NCBI GenBank assembly: GCA_018830405.1
Contig: JAHJSF010000030.1
Location: forward strand, 1 to 22,722
DNA from: Nitrospinota bacterium
Lineage (GTDB): Bacteria > Nitrospinota > Nitrospinia > UBA9942 > JAHJSF01
Length of the DNA stretch: 22,722 bases
Reading direction: 5' to 3'
The notes beneath the pieces were generated by a model. The model was given only the letters and a program-made list of their open reading frames with translations. It ran no database searches and had not been told where the DNA came from. Below, one piece after another: positions 4,658 through 20,124 of this stretch; position 1 is the first letter of the stretch; each line of letters starts with the position of its first letter. The position numbers were made by a program, and so were the translations under genes.

Positions 4658-4681
4658 ATTTCCTCCGCCTCACTTTTCTTA

Positions 4682-4797
4682 TAAAGAGTGTCATAACTTC
4701 GCATGCCTTTGTTGCTCCTCAGTTCGTCACTGCGGCGTATGCTGAAATACGCCTCACTCCTCACTTTTGTCGCGCCTCGGTCTACTTTGTTCTGACC
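4682..4797 (-). repeat. Hairpin repeat family, copy 1 (inverted relative to the 11.0-kb copy)
   Basis: About 116 bases that match, as reverse complement and nearly end to end, the sequence at 10974-11092. Read on the minus strand it runs TCAGAACAAAGTAG, a GAGGAGTGAG block, a hairpin GGCGTAT-TTCAGC-ATACGCC (plus-strand 4734-4753), GAGGAGCAACAAAGGC, then GTTATGAC. It fills the gap between the GT2 and GT9 genes and runs into the 3' end of the GT2 coding sequence. The stem abuts the GT2 stop codon and has no T-tract, so it might shield an mRNA 3' end rather than terminate. Confidence 0.85.
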
Positions 4798-6024: not shown

Positions 6025-6278
6025 AGGGTCTTCGTGTCTTAGTGTGGGTCATTTTATCCTATCCCCCCTCTTTGGCAAATCCGACCACCAACTCCTCCCT
6101 TTGGCAAAGGGAGGTTGGGAGGGATTTTATAATCATAACCCACTCCATATTTCCATCTCCCGGTTTTCAAATCCCCCTTCATCCCCCTAACAACCCCCTT
6201 TTATTCCCCCTTTGTTAAGGGGGACTTGAGGGGGTTGTAATTCCCCGTTTTCTAAAGGGGGAATTTATTTAAGGCCTT
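6025..6278 (-). repeat. Compound repeat, copy A (occupied by a nested module)
   Basis: On the minus strand this begins AAGGCCTTAAATAAATTC just after the dCTP deaminase stop. It continues through GAAGGGGGATTTGAAAAC, GGGAGATGGAAATA, a Pu/Py-rich CTCCC/GGGAG block, TAGGATAAAATGACCCACAC and a tail of ACACGAAGACCCTAAAA. The same sequence, in inverted orientation, lies at 12343-12500. Copy A is longer because about 60 extra bases (the module at 6188-6240 and its junction) interrupt it. The tail resembles the 'ACACTAAGACACGAAGAC' type of intergenic repeat seen in many genomes. No open frame lies in this 267-base gap between dCTP deaminase and dut. Confidence 0.85.
6188..6240. repeat. Nested 53-bp C/G-rich palindromic module (MITE-like)
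   Basis: Perfect 10-bp terminal inverted repeats, ACAACCCCCT at 6190-6199 and AGGGGGTTGT at 6229-6238, enclose an inner hairpin CCCCCTT-TGTT-AAGGGGG at 6206-6223. The related 12.4-kb repeat copy lacks this module. The same 10-bp ends recur at 15410-15419 and 15517-15526 around a longer interior. That makes it a separable unit, probably a miniature inverted-repeat element. No recognisable target duplication is certain. Confidence 0.75.
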
Positions 6279-6280
6279 CA

Positions 6281-7438
6281 CTATATATTTTTAAAATGTT
6301 TACTCAGGGCCAACCCCTGTTTATGGTAGTGGGACCCGATATCAGCCCCATAGTATGATGATGGCGATTGAAGCATACGCTCATACTTTATCTTACAGAA
6401 TATCTGCCCATCCTCTATCCTGAAGGGGACATCGTGGGGACGAACCTCCAAGACCGCCTTGGTTCCCTTAATCTCTCCCCCTTGGCCGTAACCGAAACCG
6501 CTGTCAAAGAAACCTGCATAGTGGGTCCTAACCTCCCCAGAACCGGCATCAAACTCAACCATCTCCCCGGCCATGTCGAGAGGAACTCGAACCCTCTCCG
6601 TAGAGGCAAATATATAAAACTCCTCCGGCTCCAGAATGATATGTCTATCGGGGTGTGACATAATCGGCTCCCAATACTCCTCAACATCGTAGTGGCGTAT
6701 ATTATCAAGGTCGATAACGGCACTATTCTTCTTGGCCTTATAACCTACTATCTCCCTATCCCCAGAGGCCGAACCTATCCCTATCCCCATAAAGAGTCCC
6801 CCCTTCATAACCGCCTTGTCGGCGGGGACAGCCTGGCCGTTATCGTAGTAGAGAAGGGGATCTTTTTTATAATACGCCAGCAACTCTGAATCGGTAATCT
6901 TGGAGGCATCTACGCAATTGTCGCCACCGCTACCGGCTGTAAAGAGACGGAGCTGGTTTAAGGCCTGCCCCGCCTTAACCTTGATGGTAAACGATTTAGG
7001 GACTATCTCCATATAGAGTCCCCCCTTATAGCCCGGCTCTATATCCTCAAAACGGCAGCCGTAGTCGGTAATAACCCTGGTAAAGATATCAAGTCTCCCC
7101 GTAGAACTCTTTGGGTTGGTTCTGGCGGAAATATTAGGCGGCAGGTTGAGACTTTCGAGAAGCGGAATCAGGTAGACATTCCCCTTCTCTAATATTGCCC
7201 CGTTTGAGATATCAATCTGGTACATTTCAAGGTCGGCCACCCCCTCCATCACCCTCTCTTTGTGGGGGAGGAAACTGCTCCTTATCCTATAGCAGACAGG
7301 CCCAAGCCTTAGATCCAAGCTGGATGGTTGGATACAACTATCGTCTATGGTCAGATCAGAGGTTATATACCCCTCCCTAATAACATCCCGCAAAATATGG
7401 TCAGGCAGCACCCCGTTTGAATCAAAAAAATCGGTCAT
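6281..7438 (-). CDS. dcd: Two-domain 2'-deoxycytidine 5'-triphosphate deaminase
   Basis: A 385-residue protein, twice the length of the usual about 190-residue Dcd. The N-terminal half has SSLDLRLG (39-46), NPKSSTGRLDIFTRV (108-122), similar to the RSSLGRLGL motif, and IEPGYKGGLYMEIV (133-146), matching the IDPGWxGxxxLE catalytic segment. The C-terminal half repeats the fold, with AGEMVEFDAGSGEVRTHYAG, FFDSGFGYG and KAVLEVRPHD. This matches the tandem DCD family (Pfam DCD type) found in alphaproteobacteria and others. It should deaminate dCTP to dUTP, the substrate of Dut encoded next. It is the first gene of the minus-strand operon, behind an extended -10 promoter at 7513-7521. The ribosome site is weak. 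Alternatives such as a bifunctional dCTP deaminase/dUTPase are less likely because a separate dut is present. Confidence 0.88.
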   Translation of the reverse strand: MTDFFDSNGVLPDHILRDVIREGYITSDLTIDDSCIQPSSLDLRLGPVCYRIRSSFLPHKERVMEGVADLEMYQIDISNGAILEKGNVYLIPLLESLNLPPNISARTNPKSSTGRLDIFTRVITDYGCRFEDIEPGYKGGLYMEIVPKSFTIKVKAGQALNQLRLFTAGSGGDNCVDASKITDSELLAYYKKDPLLYYDNGQAVPADKAVMKGGLFMGIGIGSASGDREIVGYKAKKNSAVIDLDNIRHYDVEEYWEPIMSHPDRHIILEPEEFYIFASTERVRVPLDMAGEMVEFDAGSGEVRTHYAGFFDSGFGYGQGGEIKGTKAVLEVRPHDVPFRIEDGQIFCKIKYERMLQSPSSYYGADIGSHYHKQGLALSKHFKNI

Positions 7439-10973: not shown

Positions 10974-11092
10974 CATCAGAACAAAGTAGGCCGAGGCAAG
11001 ACGAAAGTGAGGAGTGAGGCGTATTTTCAGCATACGCCGTAACGACAAGCTGAGGAGCAACGAAGGCATACAAAGTTATGAGGCTCTGAATA
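10974..11092 (+). repeat. Hairpin repeat family, copy 2, in the tyrS leader
   Basis: This matches the reverse complement of 4682-4797 over nearly its whole length. It runs TCAGAACAAAGTAG, GGCAAGACG, GAGGAGTGAG, a hairpin GGCGTAT (11018-11024)-TTTCAGC-ATACGCC (11032-11038), then GAGGAGCAACGAAGGC, AAAGTTATGAG and CTCTGAATAA. The ends TCAGA/TCTGA are imperfectly complementary. It ends 6 bases before the tyrS Shine-Dalgarno, so it would be transcribed as part of the tyrS 5' leader. The gap 10836-11110 holds this and the promoter and nothing else recognised. Confidence 0.85.
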
Positions 11093-11110
11093 AATAACAA
11101 GGAGATATTT

Positions 11111-12322: not shown

Positions 12323-12342
12323 TATTACTCAATGATAAAGTA

Positions 12343-12500
12343 AAGGCCTTAAATAAATTCCCCCTTTAGAAAAGGGGGATGAAGGGGGATTTGAAAACTG
12401 GGAGATGGAAATACGGAGTGGGTTGTGATTATAAAATCTCCCCCCACCCCTCTTTGCCAAAGAGGGGGAATAGGATAAAATGACCCACACGAAGACCCGA
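12343..12500 (+). repeat. Compound repeat, copy B (empty of the nested module)
   Basis: This begins AAGGCCTTAAATAAATTC and continues colinearly with the reverse complement of 6025-6278, through GAAGGGGGATTTGAAAAC and TAGGATAAAATGACCCACAC to a shortened ACACGAAGACCC tail. It lacks the 53-bp palindromic module found in copy A and also a few bases of the tail. It fills most of the 214-base gap between tyrS and speB. The CCCCCTTTAGAAAAGGGGG stem near its start has no T-tract. Confidence 0.85.
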
Positions 12501-15360: not shown

Positions 15361-15384
15361 GCATAGGGGTGGCAGCGTTATATT

Positions 15385-15550
15385 ATACGGAGTTACATTC
15401 AAAATAATTACAACCCCCTTACTCCCCCTTTTCTAAGGGGGAATTATGGGAGGAATTGCAGTAGAGTCCCCCTTGGGAAAGGGGCATCCAACGATTCCCC
15501 CTTAACAAAGGGGGGTAGGGGGTTGTTAGCGTTTGAATGCGACTCCGTAT
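15385..15550. repeat. Modular inverted-repeat element with ATTCAAA ends (166 bp)
   Basis: The 19-base outer arms (15385-15403 and 15532-15550) are complementary at 17 positions: ATACGGAGT, then a spacer, then ATTCAAA, mirrored as TTTGAAT and ACTCCGTAT. Inside, ACAACCCCCT (15410-15419) and AGGGGGTTGT (15517-15526) match the ends of the nested module at 6188-6240, here around a longer C/G-rich interior with several CCCCC/GGGGG stems. The end sequences ATTCAAAATAATTACAA and GTTAGCGTTTGAAT recur at 19423-19522 with a different interior. No open frame is present. With the promoters on each side it accounts for the 15265-15585 gap. Confidence 0.8.
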
Positions 15551-15579
15551 TGACAAACAGAAGGGATAGCAGGTAATCT
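15550..15579 (+). promoter_or_regulatory. Promoter for ruvX-mltG, abutting the repeat element
   Basis: TTGACA (15550-15555), an 18-base spacer and TAATCT (15574-15579). The first T of the -35 is also the last base of the right arm of the element at 15385-15550. The predicted start is at about the ruvX ATG (15586), so the mRNA may be leaderless. Confidence 0.6.
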
Positions 15580-15585
15580 CTAACC

Positions 15586-16014
15586 ATGAAAACACTTTCT
15601 TTGGACTTTGGAAGCAAATATATCGGGGTGGCCATCAGTGATGACCTCGGTATCATAGCCGTCGGTCTTGAGGTAATTAAGAGGGAATACCTCAAGAATG
15701 ATATAGATAGAATAAAGACCATTATTGAGGAAAACGGGGTAGAGGAACTGGTAGTCGGACTCCCCAAAAAACTAAATAACGATGTAGGAATACAGGCAGA
15801 TAAGACCATTGCCTTCGTTGAATCTCTGAAAGAAAACATAGATATACCAATTCAGATGTGGGATGAGCGGCTAACCACTGCCGAGGCGCAAAAGATGCTT
15901 ATATCGATGAATGTCAGCCGAAGCAAAAGAAAAAAGGTAATAGATAAGGTGGCGGCCCAGCTTATTCTGGACAGCTACCTGCAATTTAAAAAGAACAGAA
16001 AAAACAGAGAATAA
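15586..16014 (+). CDS. ruvX: Putative pre-16S rRNA nuclease / Holliday junction resolvase family protein
   Basis: A 142-residue YqgF/RuvX protein with an RNase H-like fold. LDFGSKYIGVAISD near the N-terminus carries the first catalytic Asp (D7). VVGLPKKLNN, WDERLTTAEA and DKVAAQLILDSYL follow in family order with the acidic catalytic residues kept. Members process the 5' end of 16S rRNA and have been proposed as resolvases. Its stop overlaps the mltG start (TAATG), showing translational coupling. Upstream there is no well-placed Shine-Dalgarno (AGG lies about 12 bases away), consistent with a leaderless start at the promoter just upstream. Confidence 0.93.
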   Translation: MKTLSLDFGSKYIGVAISDDLGIIAVGLEVIKREYLKNDIDRIKTIIEENGVEELVVGLPKKLNNDVGIQADKTIAFVESLKENIDIPIQMWDERLTTAEAQKMLISMNVSRSKRKKVIDKVAAQLILDSYLQFKKNRKNRE

Positions 16015-17042
16015 TGACCGCCCCGACCAAAAAAAAGAAGCAGAATAAAAGTGCCTTAGCCGCCACAATACTCCTAATCCTGACACTCTTGCTCTCCCCC
16101 TTAATCTCCCTCGGCTACTGGTTTTACACCCCCCATAATCCGAATGGACAGAATGAGATTGTGGAGATCAAAAAGGGGGGAAACATAAATACCATATCCT
16201 CCCTGCTTAAAGAGAGGGGACTCATAAATAACAGTCTCTATTACCGAATCATAGGGAGAATTGTTTCATTCGGCCTAAAACCAAAGGCGGGGGAATACCT
16301 CTTATCCGCCTCAATGTCCCCCTCGGTCATAATGGGCAAAATATCGAACGGTAAGGTATATATGCATCAGGTAACCATACCGGAAGGGTTTAATATCTAC
16401 GAAATAGCCTCGCTCCTCGAGGGAAAACAGTTGGCTAATAAGGAAAGATTTCTGGCTGCGGCAACAGACCGCGAATTCATAAAGTCTCTATCATTCGATA
16501 TCCCCTCCCTGGAGGGCTACCTTTTCCCCGACACATATCTATTGTCCAAGGGGATGACAGAAAGGGAGATTGCCGCCAAGATGGTTAAGACCTTCAAGGA
16601 GCTGGCCTATAACGAAATTGCGGCCAAGGCCTCCGCAGTGGGACTGACCCCTCATCAGGTTGTCAATATGGCCTCATTAGTGGAAAAGGAAACCGCCCTG
16701 AACGAGGAGAAAGTCATCGTCGCCTCTGTCTTTCATAACAGGCTGAAGAAGGGGATGAGGCTCCAGTGTGATCCAACCGTTATCTACGCCATCAAGAACT
16801 TTGACGGGAATATCAGAAAGAAGGACCTGATGATAGATTCCCCCTACAACACCTACCGCTACGCCGGACTACCGATAGGTCCGATAGCCAACCCGGGACT
16901 TGATTCCATACGCGGAGTCTTATATCCCGTTCAAAGCAATTACCTCTACTTTGTAGCCACCAAACAGGGGGGGCACTACTTCTCGACCAACATAAAAGAC
17001 CATAATAGGGCGGTCAGGAAATATCAGCTGAACGGGAAATAG
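16014..17042 (+). CDS. mltG: Endolytic peptidoglycan transglycosylase MltG (YceG-like)
   Basis: A 342-residue inner-membrane enzyme. A Lys-rich cytoplasmic start (KKKKQNK) is followed by one transmembrane segment (about 15-37), leaving a periplasmic LysM-like region and the YceG catalytic domain. The active-site motif NMASLVEKETAL places the catalytic Glu at about 224, followed by VFHNRLKKGMRLQCDPTVIYA and, near the end, SNYLYFVA. It cleaves nascent glycan strands and sets their length. ruvX and yceG-type genes are neighbours in many bacteria, which supports both calls. The ATG shares its A with the ruvX TAA stop. Confidence 0.94.
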   Translation: MTAPTKKKKQNKSALAATILLILTLLLSPLISLGYWFYTPHNPNGQNEIVEIKKGGNINTISSLLKERGLINNSLYYRIIGRIVSFGLKPKAGEYLLSASMSPSVIMGKISNGKVYMHQVTIPEGFNIYEIASLLEGKQLANKERFLAAATDREFIKSLSFDIPSLEGYLFPDTYLLSKGMTEREIAAKMVKTFKELAYNEIAAKASAVGLTPHQVVNMASLVEKETALNEEKVIVASVFHNRLKKGMRLQCDPTVIYAIKNFDGNIRKKDLMIDSPYNTYRYAGLPIGPIANPGLDSIRGVLYPVQSNYLYFVATKQGGHYFSTNIKDHNRAVRKYQLNGK

Positions 17043-17047
17043 ATTTT

Positions 17048-17080
17048 AAACCGCCGAGAACGCTGAGGCCGCAGAGTTTA
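17048..17080 (+). repeat. CCGCnGAG mini-repeat, copy 2
   Basis: It starts 5 bases after the mltG stop: AAACCGCCGAG, CGCTGAG, GCCGCAGAGTTTA. It has the same unit, length and AAAC...GTTTA borders as 14481-14514, and both copies follow a stop codon directly. It marks the end of the housekeeping operon. Confidence 0.5.
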
Positions 17081-17150
17081 CCAACATTATGACCAATGCT
17101 TAAATCCCTTATTGACTCTAACTACCTATCTGTAATACTGTTAAGCAGTT

Positions 17151-17271
17151 AGGGTGATTTCATATCAGACTAAAAACAGAGAACAATCATTCCACGAATC
17201 ACCCTTAATATAGGGATAAGTAAAAATATTTTCCTTATATATACTCCGATATGGTGGAAAGTATTTCCACC
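17151..17271. promoter_or_regulatory. Two inverted repeats upstream of the lipoprotein gene
   Basis: AGGGTGATT (17151-17159) and AATCACCCT (17197-17205) are perfectly complementary across 37 bases. GGTGGAAA (17253-17260) and TTTCCACC (17264-17271) form a perfect 8-bp palindrome with a GTA centre. A TATACT at 17240-17245 could be a -10 box, which would put the second palindrome at the transcription start, as for an operator. No convincing -35 is seen. The rest of the 17081-17297 gap shows nothing I recognise. Confidence 0.45.
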
Positions 17272-17297
17272 TATTAACACTTTTAGCGAGGAAAATT

Positions 17298-17693
17298 ATG
17301 AAACTCAAAAAAACCATAATCTTTATATTTGTATCCTTCATGTTGACGGGGTGCGCTGCTAGAACAGGACTTTTAGTCGAGGTTTCTGACGGAACAAAAC
17401 CCCTTATGGGCGAGGCTGTAGCGACAGTGGTCAGTGGTACTTTCCAGGTATCAAACTTAGAGGGCTATACATGCAATGGTTCATACAACCAGTGGACCAA
17501 ATCTCCTATCCTCAAAACAAAAGTATCTTGTAGTGATGGCCGTTTTGGAGAAGTAATGGTAATGCGAACTGGGCCTAATTTCATGAATGGTTCAGGAGAA
17601 GGAGTACTAAACGACGGCACTAAATTCAGAGTTTTGATGGGTGACATGGTTCATTATCGCAATACACAAGGAGTATGGGAAAAAGCAAAATAA
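17298..17693 (+). CDS. Small outer-surface lipoprotein of unknown function
   Basis: A 131-residue protein. A short basic start (KLKK), hydrophobic core and lipobox LTGC (Cys19) mark it as a lipoprotein; Ala after the Cys predicts outer-membrane sorting. The mature part (about 112 residues) is Gly- and beta-rich, with a likely disulfide pair (C59 in EGYTCNGS and C78 in KVSCSDG) and repeated GxGEGVLNDGTKF-like turns. I do not recognise the family. GAGG 8 bases before the ATG is the ribosome site. It is probably co-transcribed with the next gene. Base composition and codon use are more AT-rich than the preceding core genes. Confidence 0.78.
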   Translation: MKLKKTIIFIFVSFMLTGCAARTGLLVEVSDGTKPLMGEAVATVVSGTFQVSNLEGYTCNGSYNQWTKSPILKTKVSCSDGRFGEVMVMRTGPNFMNGSGEGVLNDGTKFRVLMGDMVHYRNTQGVWEKAK

Positions 17694-17725
17694 CAATTAG
17701 CGGCCTAAAAAATAGGAGAATCCTA

Positions 17726-18100
17726 ATGAATCTTGATGAGTTTATCGAAACGTCACTCAAACAAATAATTGATGGTGTCAAAAATGCACAAGTAGCAACA
17801 AAGCTTCCAGGAAAACACCCAACAAAAACAGACGTAATCAATCCAGCTGTAATGTATGGTGCGGATTCCGCACCCAAAGGTAAATACTTTGCTACAACCA
17901 GTAGAAATCTTGTTCATTTTGTTGATTTTGACGTTGCAGTAACTACTGATTCAGCATCTGAAACTAAAGGCAGTTTATCCATAAAGGTAGCTGGCTTTGG
18001 AGTAGGTGGTGGCGGTGGGGCTAAAGATAGAGATATAGTTGTAAGCCGTATTAAGTTTCAGGTCCCCATTATGCTACCGCAATCTTCGGATCAAGAATAA
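17726..18100 (+). CDS. Small uncharacterised protein, resembling the 'Trypco2'-type domain family
   Basis: A 124-residue protein. The frame stays open to an ATG at 17675 inside the lipoprotein gene, but ATG at 17726 has AGGAG 7 bases upstream and begins MNLDEFIETSLKQIIDGV, so I choose it. The layout is an amphipathic N-terminal helix, then HFVDFDVAVTT, a Gly-rich turn (GFGVGGGGG) and a closing SRIKFQVPIMLP. I have seen this pattern in many uncharacterised 120-150-residue bacterial proteins, and it may correspond to the domain called trypsin-co-occurring domain 2. Assignment is from memory and tentative. No signal peptide; likely cytoplasmic. Its link to the upstream lipoprotein is unknown. 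Confidence 0.65.
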   Translation: MNLDEFIETSLKQIIDGVKNAQVATKLPGKHPTKTDVINPAVMYGADSAPKGKYFATTSRNLVHFVDFDVAVTTDSASETKGSLSIKVAGFGVGGGGGAKDRDIVVSRIKFQVPIMLPQSSDQE

Positions 18101-18198
18101 TGCCTTTGCTATTATGCTTAAAAAAGATTAAGAATAAGCGCAATCGATATTTAAATAGCTGAAATGAAGTTCCCCCGATTTTACGGACACTAAATTTA

Positions 18199-18275
18199 GT
18201 TAGGCCGCAAGAGGCTGGGCGGTGCTAATCGCGGTCTATTGCGCTGGGCGGCTCCTGAACTCAACCGTTATATGT
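18199..18275 (+). other. Possible integron attC remnant upstream of the DUF2971 gene
   Basis: GTTAGGC (18199-18205) has the GTTRRRY form of an integron core site. About 60 bases later GGCTCCTGAACTCAACC-GTTATAT (GTTATAT at 18267-18273) resembles the L'-R' end of attC sites. Two GCTGGGCGG copies lie between. The expected complementary 5' half is not visible. GTTATATGT at 18267-18275 is the exact complement of ACATATAAC at 19171-19179 beyond the gene. Confidence 0.35.
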
Positions 18276-18284
18276 AAGAATATT

Positions 18285-19178
18285 ATGGATTACAAAATTC
18301 CAGAGTTTCTTTATAAATATACTTCCTGTTCAACTGCAAAATTAATATTAAGGAATAAAACAATACGGTGGAATTCTCCCTTAAATTTCAATGATATTTT
18401 TGAACTTAATCACTCGCTAGGGATGGATTTCGAAGAAACTAAAGCAGTAAACATTATCGCCCAGAAACTTGCCGCTGTAATATATGATGACGAGATTCAG
18501 CTTTATGATACCGGAAAGAAAAACCCCAAACTGGATTATATGCGAAGAAACTTGCGCAAAGACTCATATCCAATAGAACAGCTAGTCGAAACAATAAAGC
18601 TTGTGGCAAGAGAATTTATTCCCACGGTCAAAAATATTATAGAAAGTGAAAGAATACGTTGGCGAAAGGATATTGAGAATTATAGAATTTTATGTTTTTC
18701 TGAATTCAATGATTCTGACTTAATGTGGAAGCGTTATTCAGATCAGCATTCCGGGGTGGTCCTTCAATGGAAACCAATTGCTACGATTGATTCCACTCTT
18801 TTAGTGGCTCGCCCTGTAGTATATTCTGATGATATACCAGAAGTTGCTACATTTGAATATTTTACTGAAGTTGCTGTTGGTTTAAAACCAATGGTAAGCA
18901 CTGATGATTTGTCCGCATTAACAACTATTAAAGCGACATCATGGTCAGATGAAAATGAGTGGCGCATTGTTTCAACAAACAGAATTTACGATTCTGGAGA
19001 TCATGAAGATGTTCCATTTTCAGCACAAGAAATTAATTCTGTGTATTTGGGCTGTCAAATTGACAACAAAGATAAAAAAGTTATTTTGAAATATATTGAT
19101 GAAAATTTTTCTCATGTTAATGTTTATCAGGCATATATAGATGAAGATACTAGAGTGATAACATTTAAAAACATATAA
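18285..19178 (+). CDS. DUF2971 family protein
   Basis: A 297-residue cytoplasmic protein. It opens IPEFLYKYTSCSTAKLILRNKTIRWNSPLNFNDIFEL, the classic DUF2971 pattern of 'xLYKY ... NPxxFNDPFE'. Later come ILCFSEFNDSDLMWKRYSDQHSGVVLQW and SWSDENEWRIV, both typical of the family. Its biochemical role is unknown; members are common in phage-related regions, genomic islands and gene cassettes. The frame extends back to 18222, but ATG at 18285 gives the family start. The ribosome site is weak (TAAGAA). It is clearly more AT-rich than the core genes. The 9-bp inverted repeats at 18267-18275 and 19171-19179 bracket it, the second one containing its stop codon, as in an integron cassette. Confidence 0.85.
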   Translation: MDYKIPEFLYKYTSCSTAKLILRNKTIRWNSPLNFNDIFELNHSLGMDFEETKAVNIIAQKLAAVIYDDEIQLYDTGKKNPKLDYMRRNLRKDSYPIEQLVETIKLVAREFIPTVKNIIESERIRWRKDIENYRILCFSEFNDSDLMWKRYSDQHSGVVLQWKPIATIDSTLLVARPVVYSDDIPEVATFEYFTEVAVGLKPMVSTDDLSALTTIKATSWSDENEWRIVSTNRIYDSGDHEDVPFSAQEINSVYLGCQIDNKDKKVILKYIDENFSHVNVYQAYIDEDTRVITFKNI

Positions 19179-19305
19179 CTATGCAGTGCAGTTGAAATCG
19201 AAGCAGCCGGGATAAGTTTTGCTCTCTATATTTTATGATGTTCAAATCAGTCTAATGCATGTTAATATTCTCAAGGGTTCGATTCACTGACTTTCGCATT
19301 AGCCG
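19171..19305 (+). other. Possible decayed attC site downstream of the DUF2971 gene
   Basis: ACATATAAC (19171-19179) spans the stop codon and complements GTTATATGT upstream of the gene. GTTGAAATCGAAGC at about 19191-19204 is partly complementary to GGTTCGATTCACTGAC at about 19277-19292, as the L boxes of an attC would be. The expected closing GTTRRRY is not intact (CATTAGCC is near it). Between here and the element at 19411 I see nothing else. Confidence 0.3.
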
Positions 19306-19410
19306 TATTGAATGCAGGGCAATGTAGCTGACAGAAATTAATCCATAGTGGATGGGGGCAGGTCTACTGATGTTTGAGCCTCCGACTATCCCAACCGCCG
19401 TCTATTTTTT

Positions 19411-19534
19411 GCACGAAGTAGAATTCAAAATGATAACAAGGCGGCAAGGAGGAGGCGACGCAGGCATAGTTTGAGCTATGTTGAGGAGCTGACGACGAAG
19501 CCAACACAGTTAGCGTTTGAATAGTGCTTCGTGT
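19411..19534. repeat. Modular inverted-repeat element with ATTCAAA ends and hairpin-family interior
   Basis: The 19-base arms (19411-19429 and 19516-19534) are complementary at 15 positions: CACGAAG and ATTCAAA mirrored as TTTGAAT and CTTCGTG. The ends ATTCAAAATGATAACAA and GTTAGCGTTTGAAT match the element at 15385-15550. The interior instead belongs to the hairpin family of 4.7 and 11.0 kb: GGCAAGGAGGAG, stem CATAG (19465-19469)-TTTGAG-CTATG (19476-19480), GAGGAGC and GACGAAGCC. The right arm meets the stop codon of the phospholipase D-like gene. Confidence 0.8.
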
Positions 19535-20124
19535 CATTCGATTCTATTCAGATAATCAAGAAAATATCTCGCCAACTCCTCAGACTCAATCATCAGTGAG
19601 GTCTCATTACTCTTTGATAGGGCTGTATGGGACAGATTGTGACTGCCTATAAAAACTATCTTTCTATCTATAACAATCAGCTTAGAGTGGGTAACTTTGC
19701 CGAGGGAATCAAACCTCACCTTAACCCCTCCCTTCTGCAACCTGTCGGCCGTAAAACTGTTTGATTTGTTCAGGCTATCACTCTTCCTCCCATTCTTTTC
19801 CAATATCACCTCCACCTCTACCCCACGTTGGGCAGCAGCCAGAAGTTCCTGCATAATGGCATTTGAGTAATTCTTTTTGGAGTTGGTCGTTTTGAAGAGA
19901 TACATAGAGAGATGGATATCCCTATCCGCCCCCTTTATTTTCTCCCTCAGAAGGTGAAAATATTTCTCATTATCGAGAGGAACAATGGGGGCATCAAAAG
20001 ATTCCGCAACTATCCCGCCTGAATAAACAGAGCGGGCTAAAATCTGGCTGGGAGAGGCCAAGGCAACGGCCAGCAGACAGACAACAAAGAAAAACCTAAA
20101 TTTAAAAATGTTGTCTGTAAGCAT
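19534..20124 (-). CDS. Secreted phospholipase D-like nuclease (single HKD motif)
   Basis: A 196-residue protein with a signal peptide (about 1-30, hydrophobic FFFVVCLLAVALA then SPSQILA). One HKD motif, HSKLIVID...IGSHNLS, keeps His, Lys, Asp and the GS pair. A single HKD copy and small size fit the Nuc/endonuclease-type PLD proteins that work as homodimers, here in the periplasm or outside the cell. Lipid hydrolysis is the alternative. It begins 9 bases after the helicase stop, so it is in that operon. The stop codon abuts the repeat element at 19411-19534. Confidence 0.85.
   Translation of the reverse strand: MLTDNIFKFRFFFVVCLLAVALASPSQILARSVYSGGIVAESFDAPIVPLDNEKYFHLLREKIKGADRDIHLSMYLFKTTNSKKNYSNAIMQELLAAAQRGVEVEVILEKNGRKSDSLNKSNSFTADRLQKGGVKVRFDSLGKVTHSKLIVIDRKIVFIGSHNLSHTALSKSNETSLMIESEELARYFLDYLNRIE

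Follow-up and report, generated by a model that had tools for sequence, protein, structure and literature searches.

We analysed a stretch of 22,722 nucleotides (the window) from a Nitrospinota bacterium (GenBank assembly GCA_018830405.1, contig JAHJSF010000030.1). Two palindromic elements in it, at 15386-15549 and 19412-19533, have identical ends and differing arms, as the original prediction had described, and both belong to one family of short repeats. By its anatomy, that is by terminal repeats, target duplication, size and copy number, this is a family of miniature inverted-repeat transposable elements (MITEs). We consider it fairly probable that the family is moved by a DDE-type transposase, that its arms are kept matched by template switching, and that its interior has been replaced by another repeat in many copies.

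The window is contig C167 of its own genome (G000), a draft of 1.42 Mb in 185 contigs that is 87% complete. The terminal-repeat pattern is matched 95 times in G000, against 6 matches for the reversed control pattern, and the spacing within facing terminal pairs stays below about 200 bp; the family thus counts about 45 copies, none of them long. The ends are not restricted to the two places in the window, and their number is far above chance. The exact end-to-end pattern is found in 6 copies genome-wide, its reverse in none. The family element, a hairpin about 122 nt long, contains no open reading frame (ORF); it is bounded by 18-bp terminal inverted repeats (TACnnAGTTGCATTCAAA) and, outside these, by a 3-bp TNA target duplication. 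Arms included, most copies measure about 120-190 nt and the smallest about 71 nt. The G000 consensus reads TACGGAGTTGC-ATTCAAAATGATAACAAGGCGGCAAGGAGGAAGCGACGCAGGCATAC-loop-GTATGTTGAGGAGCTGACGACGAAGCCAACACAGTTAGCGTTTGAAT-GCGACTTCGTA. Each terminal inverted repeat spans the outermost 18 bp on its side, and 93% of the cells of these repeats are paired among 65 distinct copies. When all copies are aligned, the ATTCAAA...TTTGAAT unit and the presumed site-specific arms around it turn out to be one element, with the arms as its outer 11 bp. The two window copies are built as follows.

15386..15549, + strand: MITE copy 1, 164 nt, with C/G-rich interior
15386..15403, + strand: left terminal inverted repeat of copy 1, TACGGAGTTAC+ATTCAAA (family consensus TACGGAGTTGCATTCAAA)
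15532..15549, + strand: right terminal inverted repeat of copy 1, TTTGAAT+GCGACTCCGTA
15410..15526, + strand: C/G-rich palindromic module of copy 1, ACAACCCCC...GGGGGTTGT, in place of the native interior; junction class 13/12
15383..15385, no strand: left flank TTA of copy 1, putative target duplication, with one mismatch to its partner TTG
15550..15552, no strand: right flank TTG of copy 1, putative decayed target duplication
19412..19533, + strand: MITE copy 2, 122 nt, with native interior; 94% match to the family consensus over positions 2-111
19412..19429, + strand: left terminal inverted repeat of copy 2, diverged, CACGAAGTAGA+ATTCAAA
19516..19533, + strand: right terminal inverted repeat of copy 2, diverged, TTTGAAT+AGTGCTTCGTG
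19440..19508, + strand: native hairpin interior of copy 2, GGCGGCAAGGAGGAGGCGACGCAGGCATAG...CTATGTTGAGGAGCTGACGACGAAGCCAACACAG

The shared-end unit is ATTCAAAATAATTACAA...GTTAGCGTTTGAAT in copy 1 (15397-15538) and ATTCAAAATGATAACAA...GTTAGCGTTTGAAT in copy 2 (19423-19522). Directly outside it stand ACGGAGT/ACTCCGT in copy 1 and CACGAAG/CTTCGTG in copy 2, parts of the longer arms TACGGAGTTAC/GCGACTCCGTA and CACGAAGTAGA/AGTGCTTCGTG, respectively. Each copy is predicted to fold into a single long hairpin (z = -8.4 for copy 1, -5.9 for copy 2). The native interior of copy 2 recurs at L001, L004, L006, L028 and L032 (L numbers denote individual loci compared) and in other genomes. The flanks of copy 2, TTG/TCA, are decayed; the TCA overlaps the stop codon of an ORF with a PLD domain at 19534-20124 (- strand), whose product may have had its C-terminus trimmed by the insertion.

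The target duplication was examined in 81 well-delimited copies from ten genomes, with left and right flanks re-paired by permutation. The 3-bp flanks are identical in 34 copies, against 11.3 after re-pairing (by genome set 12, 13 and 9, with P<=0.0002 in each of the three). Where TNA stands on both flanks (42 copies), its N is identical in 34/42: in 12/14 copies of G000, in 13/17 of G077 (the metagenome-assembled genome, or MAG, of Deltaproteobacteria bacterium nzgw173) and in 9/11 elsewhere. Many copies, TNA duplication in three genome sets and a modular interior support the prediction that the element is mobile but non-autonomous and has conserved ends around an exchangeable interior. The matching flanks place the insertion boundary outside the arms. 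The idea that the arms stem from targeting of palindromes is thus left without support, since they lie inside the target duplication and have a family consensus, and so belong to the element itself. By the same duplication we rejected insertion of an ATTCAAA...TTTGAAT unit into pre-existing palindromes. Non-consensus yet complementary arms, as in L142 (CCCACAGCTG/CAGCTGTGGG) and in window copy 2, would suit such an interior mobile unit, but with the duplication outside the arms and a clear arm consensus in every genome we regard it as extremely improbable.

Covariation of the arms is supported, and strongly so across genomes and in G077. Among the 65 distinct copies, two-sided changes occur in 13/18 pairs (5.2 when shuffled) and in 82 cells (19.7 when shuffled), and the covariation score is 0.272, compared with 0.115 (sd 0.008) after shuffling and 0.04-0.09 when the partner is slid by 1-3 columns. 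At arm position 4, for example, the pair states are GC 23, UA 18, AU 9 and CG 7. Two-sided changes, observed versus shuffled, number 18/5.4 in G000, 32/6.4 in G077 and 11/3.3 in the other genomes. While ATTCAAA/TTTGAAT is conserved, the outer arms drift in step, so that paired differences separate the consensus arms of G000 (TACGGAGTTGC/GCGACTTCGTA), G077 (TACTAAGTTGC/GCAACTTAGTA) and the pooled remainder (TACCAAGTTGC/GCGACTTGGTA). Private matched arms were found in the single copies L072, L106, L142 and L105, those of L142 and of L072 (TACAAATGCGG/CCGCATTTGTA) being wholly private.

As a control for relatedness, each left arm was paired both with its own right arm and with that of the copy closest to it in left arm. 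In G077 own pairing is better to a moderate degree (10.17 vs 9.56, P=0.018), and isolated left arms pair at 10.2 of 11 positions with the right arm of their own copy and at 7.3 with that of the nearest copy. Transversions make up 20/32 of the two-sided changes in G077 and transitions 12/32; because transversions cannot pass through a G-U intermediate, we count them in favour of template switching. Further, G077 copies with a near-consensus interior carry mostly one-sided arm changes and diverged copies mostly two-sided ones, a pattern to be expected where copying or selection later turns mismatches into pairs.

The interior, on the alignments of 35 G000 copies, is exchangeable. The C/G-rich module is present in 26/35 and absent from 9/35 (6 with the full native interior, 3 internally deleted). 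Its left junction lies after 12-13, 38-39 or 45 nt and its right junction 12, 44-45, 54 or 62 nt from the end (mostly 12 or 44-45), left and right junctions being mixed in six or more combinations. To the eye, the junctions appear to share ACAA/TTGT-like bases. The interiors of the window copies, predicted to be unrelated, indeed cannot be aligned (local score 13, shuffle mean 14.9, P=0.85), and intermediates link them: copy 1 belongs to the shortest-flank class (13/12) with a compound module of 117 nt, and L052, with a related compound module in class 39/12, bridges both copies. L061 has a related compound module as well. The C/G-rich module also exists as a free-standing repeat in G000 and its order-mates.

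We suggest a model of three steps. Firstly, as the sequences support, hairpins about 122 nt long, with TACnnAGTTGCATTCAAA as their ends, would be moved by a DDE-type transposase encoded elsewhere; they would enter TNA sites, whose 3 bases are duplicated. Secondly, the inserted element would act as a DNA quasipalindrome, a mutated outer arm being copied onto its partner by template switching during replication; arms would then drift between copies and lineages and remain complementary inside each copy. That template switching makes quasipalindromes more perfect is known experimentally from E. coli (PMC7202029), and it has been proposed to keep RNA stems paired (PMC8794818). Thirdly, the C/G-rich hairpin ACAACCCCC...GGGGGTTGT would take the place of the hairpin top, joining through short matches of the ACAA/TTGT type. 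After amplification of one chimera, copies would recombine within the module that they share and so shuffle left and right junctions. For the second and third steps it is the pattern that is observed, and the cause is the one we presume. The anatomy of the element is explicable without any host function.

Several observations weigh against this model. No autonomous element with the family ends was found in the draft genomes or in phage, plasmid or viral collections: G000 has no long-spaced terminal pair, and DDE_Tnp_1 genes of related genomes lack these ends. PF01609 is absent from G000 and its matches elsewhere are without the ends (other transposase families were not searched). Since the ends were found around no transposase gene, we infer transposition in trans. 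Template switching past the arm tip should give complementary flanks, and flank complementarity is not in excess (7 vs 10.5 permuted). The relatedness control reaches significance neither in G000 (7.57 vs 7.39, P=0.26) nor in the other genomes besides G077 (P=0.35). Such weak covariation under the control means that subfamily history contributes, and the strong form of the claim stands on G077 and on how genomes differ from each other. The co-varying arms considered in the original prediction are thus recovered across genomes and in G077, and not by the strictest test in the window's own genome. In G000, 15/18 of the two-sided changes are transitions and 3/18 transversions, an excess that could also be obtained by selection tolerant of G-U. 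Lastly, RNA pairing would suit the G-U pairs that are fixed at arm positions 5 and 9, at which A-C is rare.

The main rival to template switching is selection on the hairpin. Arm complementarity of the same MITE family would then be held either for an RNA that affects how flanking transcripts are processed, terminated or stabilised, or for a single-stranded DNA hairpin required in transposition. Covariation of 13/18 pairs, the common wobble at positions 5 and 9, the kept ATTCAAA/TTTGAAT with outer arms drifting in step and the strong predicted folding are all in keeping with it. However, copies occupy co-directional, divergent and convergent gene contexts alike, G-T and A-C are about equal among one-sided departures from pairing outside the two fixed wobble positions, pair swaps by transversion dominate in G077, no Rfam family is matched anywhere in the window, and a second, unrelated palindrome of G077 behaves alike. 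We hold selection on the hairpin to be rather unlikely.

Alternatively, a few master copies with different arm pairs were amplified, in which case shuffles blind to relatedness overstate the covariation. The nearest-left-arm control in G000 and the minor genomes agrees with such a history, as do pair states that recur in several G077 copies, e.g. TACTCAG/CTGAGTA. The origin of masters with matched arms would still need explaining, though. Moreover, the private matched arms of L072, L106, L142 and L105, the isolated-left-arm copies of G077 and the far more extreme second palindrome family of that genome speak against subfamily history, and we find it quite unlikely.

This second palindromic repeat of G077 (L253-L272, L098, L105; at least 40 matches) consists of a conserved core CTATCGACGTCGCTTCCATAATACTATTAAGAACGGGGTAAGCGCGCTCGATAG and copy-specific outer arms, with 92.5% complementarity within a copy versus 59.5% between copies (30 positions, 16 copies). 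The C/G-rich module reappears as ACAACCCCCTTTTATTCCCCCTTTATTAAAGGGGGATAGGGGGTTGT in the RNase P RNA of order-mate G002 (RF00010, 268 bits; L216 931-1569, L244 = G002:C84:7262-7900), where it forms helix P3 and is accompanied by two further large hairpin inserts; the RNase P RNA of the window genome has ordinary length. Inside the RNase P RNA of G003:C369 lies an ORF for a GIY-YIG nuclease of 85 amino acids (L243 1697-1954, - strand; PF01541, E 9e-19). It sits in the variable P12-region insert, and the RNase P RNA of G006 has a long insert there too.

Because the C/G-rich module caps both MITEs and the G002 P3, and because a second G077 palindrome has near-perfect arms, it is conceivable, and we offer it tentatively, that in the mobile palindromes of these bacteria both arms are still evolving in concert, and that hairpin tops are exchanged among these palindromes and with genes for structured RNAs. 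A general process of palindrome homogenisation and hairpin grafting is supported, not proven, by these two cases. If true, hairpin grafting would be general and reach beyond ordinary MITE biology.

Other palindromes of the window were encountered as well. A separate family, TCAGAACAAAG...AAAGTTATGA, is present in two inverted copies at 4679-4795 and 10976-11093. These do form one family (score 149), as had been predicted; the membership of the copy 2 interior, claimed along with it, is doubtful: that interior does not significantly resemble the 4.7-kb copy, and it matches the 11.0-kb copy over a short, marginal stretch (score 25). At L051 an element of this family adjoins a truncated left end of the MITE. 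An inverted pair of long repeats at 6032-6286 and 12335-12500 contains several C/G-rich hairpin modules and is 89-94% complementary; similar sequence lies directly left of MITE copy L002.

No copy of the MITE was found in 76 other genomes of the same class, and the exact pattern was likewise negative in 59 relatives. Nor was an empty site found among the genomes compared, which include no relative of G000 at genus or family level and no second member of the genus of G077. The right end occurs 47 times in G077, and also in Smithella, other Deltaproteobacteria MAGs, Nitrospirae MAGs and Syntrophales. One good copy in the actinobacterial MAG Candidatus Solincola sediminis is possibly contamination. 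Such a wide spread over distant lineages of several phyla, with absence from the 76 genomes of the same class, speaks for mobility. Searches of viral, phage and plasmid collections gave zero copies, and a literature search for the element sequences gave no match. Related right-end variants, CAACAAAGGTAGCGCTTGATT and AGTTAGCTAAAGAATGCGACTTGGTA, in G078, G079, G082, G083 and G085 suggest that Syntrophales-like MAGs contain a wider superfamily of these elements. A long-spaced terminal pair in G082 (L185) was considered as an autonomous element and proved to be a MITE plus a further terminal repeat flanking ordinary genes. An integron site like attC, prompted by TAACAA/GTTA, was rejected too, as the ends mismatch the attC consensus RYYYAAC/GTTRRRY.

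Matched base changes are usually read as proof of a functional RNA stem. With its paired arms, many transversions and no preference for gene orientation, the family is a natural case on which to test another cause, the copying of one arm onto the other during replication. An annotator who meets covariation in a dispersed palindrome should not call an RNA gene on that ground alone. The family further shows how DNA palindromes spread and stay symmetrical, and it illustrates a chimeric origin of repeats, in which a hairpin repeat displaces the upper part of a different one and the resulting chimera is amplified.

Among known systems, the IS1031 and IS427 groups of the IS5 family of insertion sequences (IS) duplicate a 3-bp TNA target. 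The duplication is alike here; no such transposase with matching ends was found here, so we do not assign the family there, and to our knowledge the terminal sequence TACnnAGT is not one of the IS5 family. Repetitive extragenic palindromes (REPs), served by the Y1 transposase RAYT, are likewise palindromic, intergenic and high in copy number. They measure 20-40 bp and carry GTAG or CGTC tags (PMC3733652), whereas this family has long terminal repeats and the TNA duplication. Quasipalindrome correction (PMC7202029, PMC8794818) resembles the arm evolution in that imperfect inverted repeats are perfected, with paired changes in one step; it has been described for single loci and RNA genes, and we infer that it shapes a dispersed repeat family here. 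Similar in form are bacterial MITEs in general (e.g. QMITE, ERIC-like and Correia-type; PMC10969869), which are short, multicopy, intergenic and without ORF, have terminal inverted repeats and direct target repeats, and fold into stable stem-loops. Unlike in these, where outer repeats decay independently, the outer repeats here co-vary in each copy; the interior is swapped for another repeat at few fixed junctions, and no parental IS was found. Paired drift of the arms together with exchange of the hairpin top is unusual.

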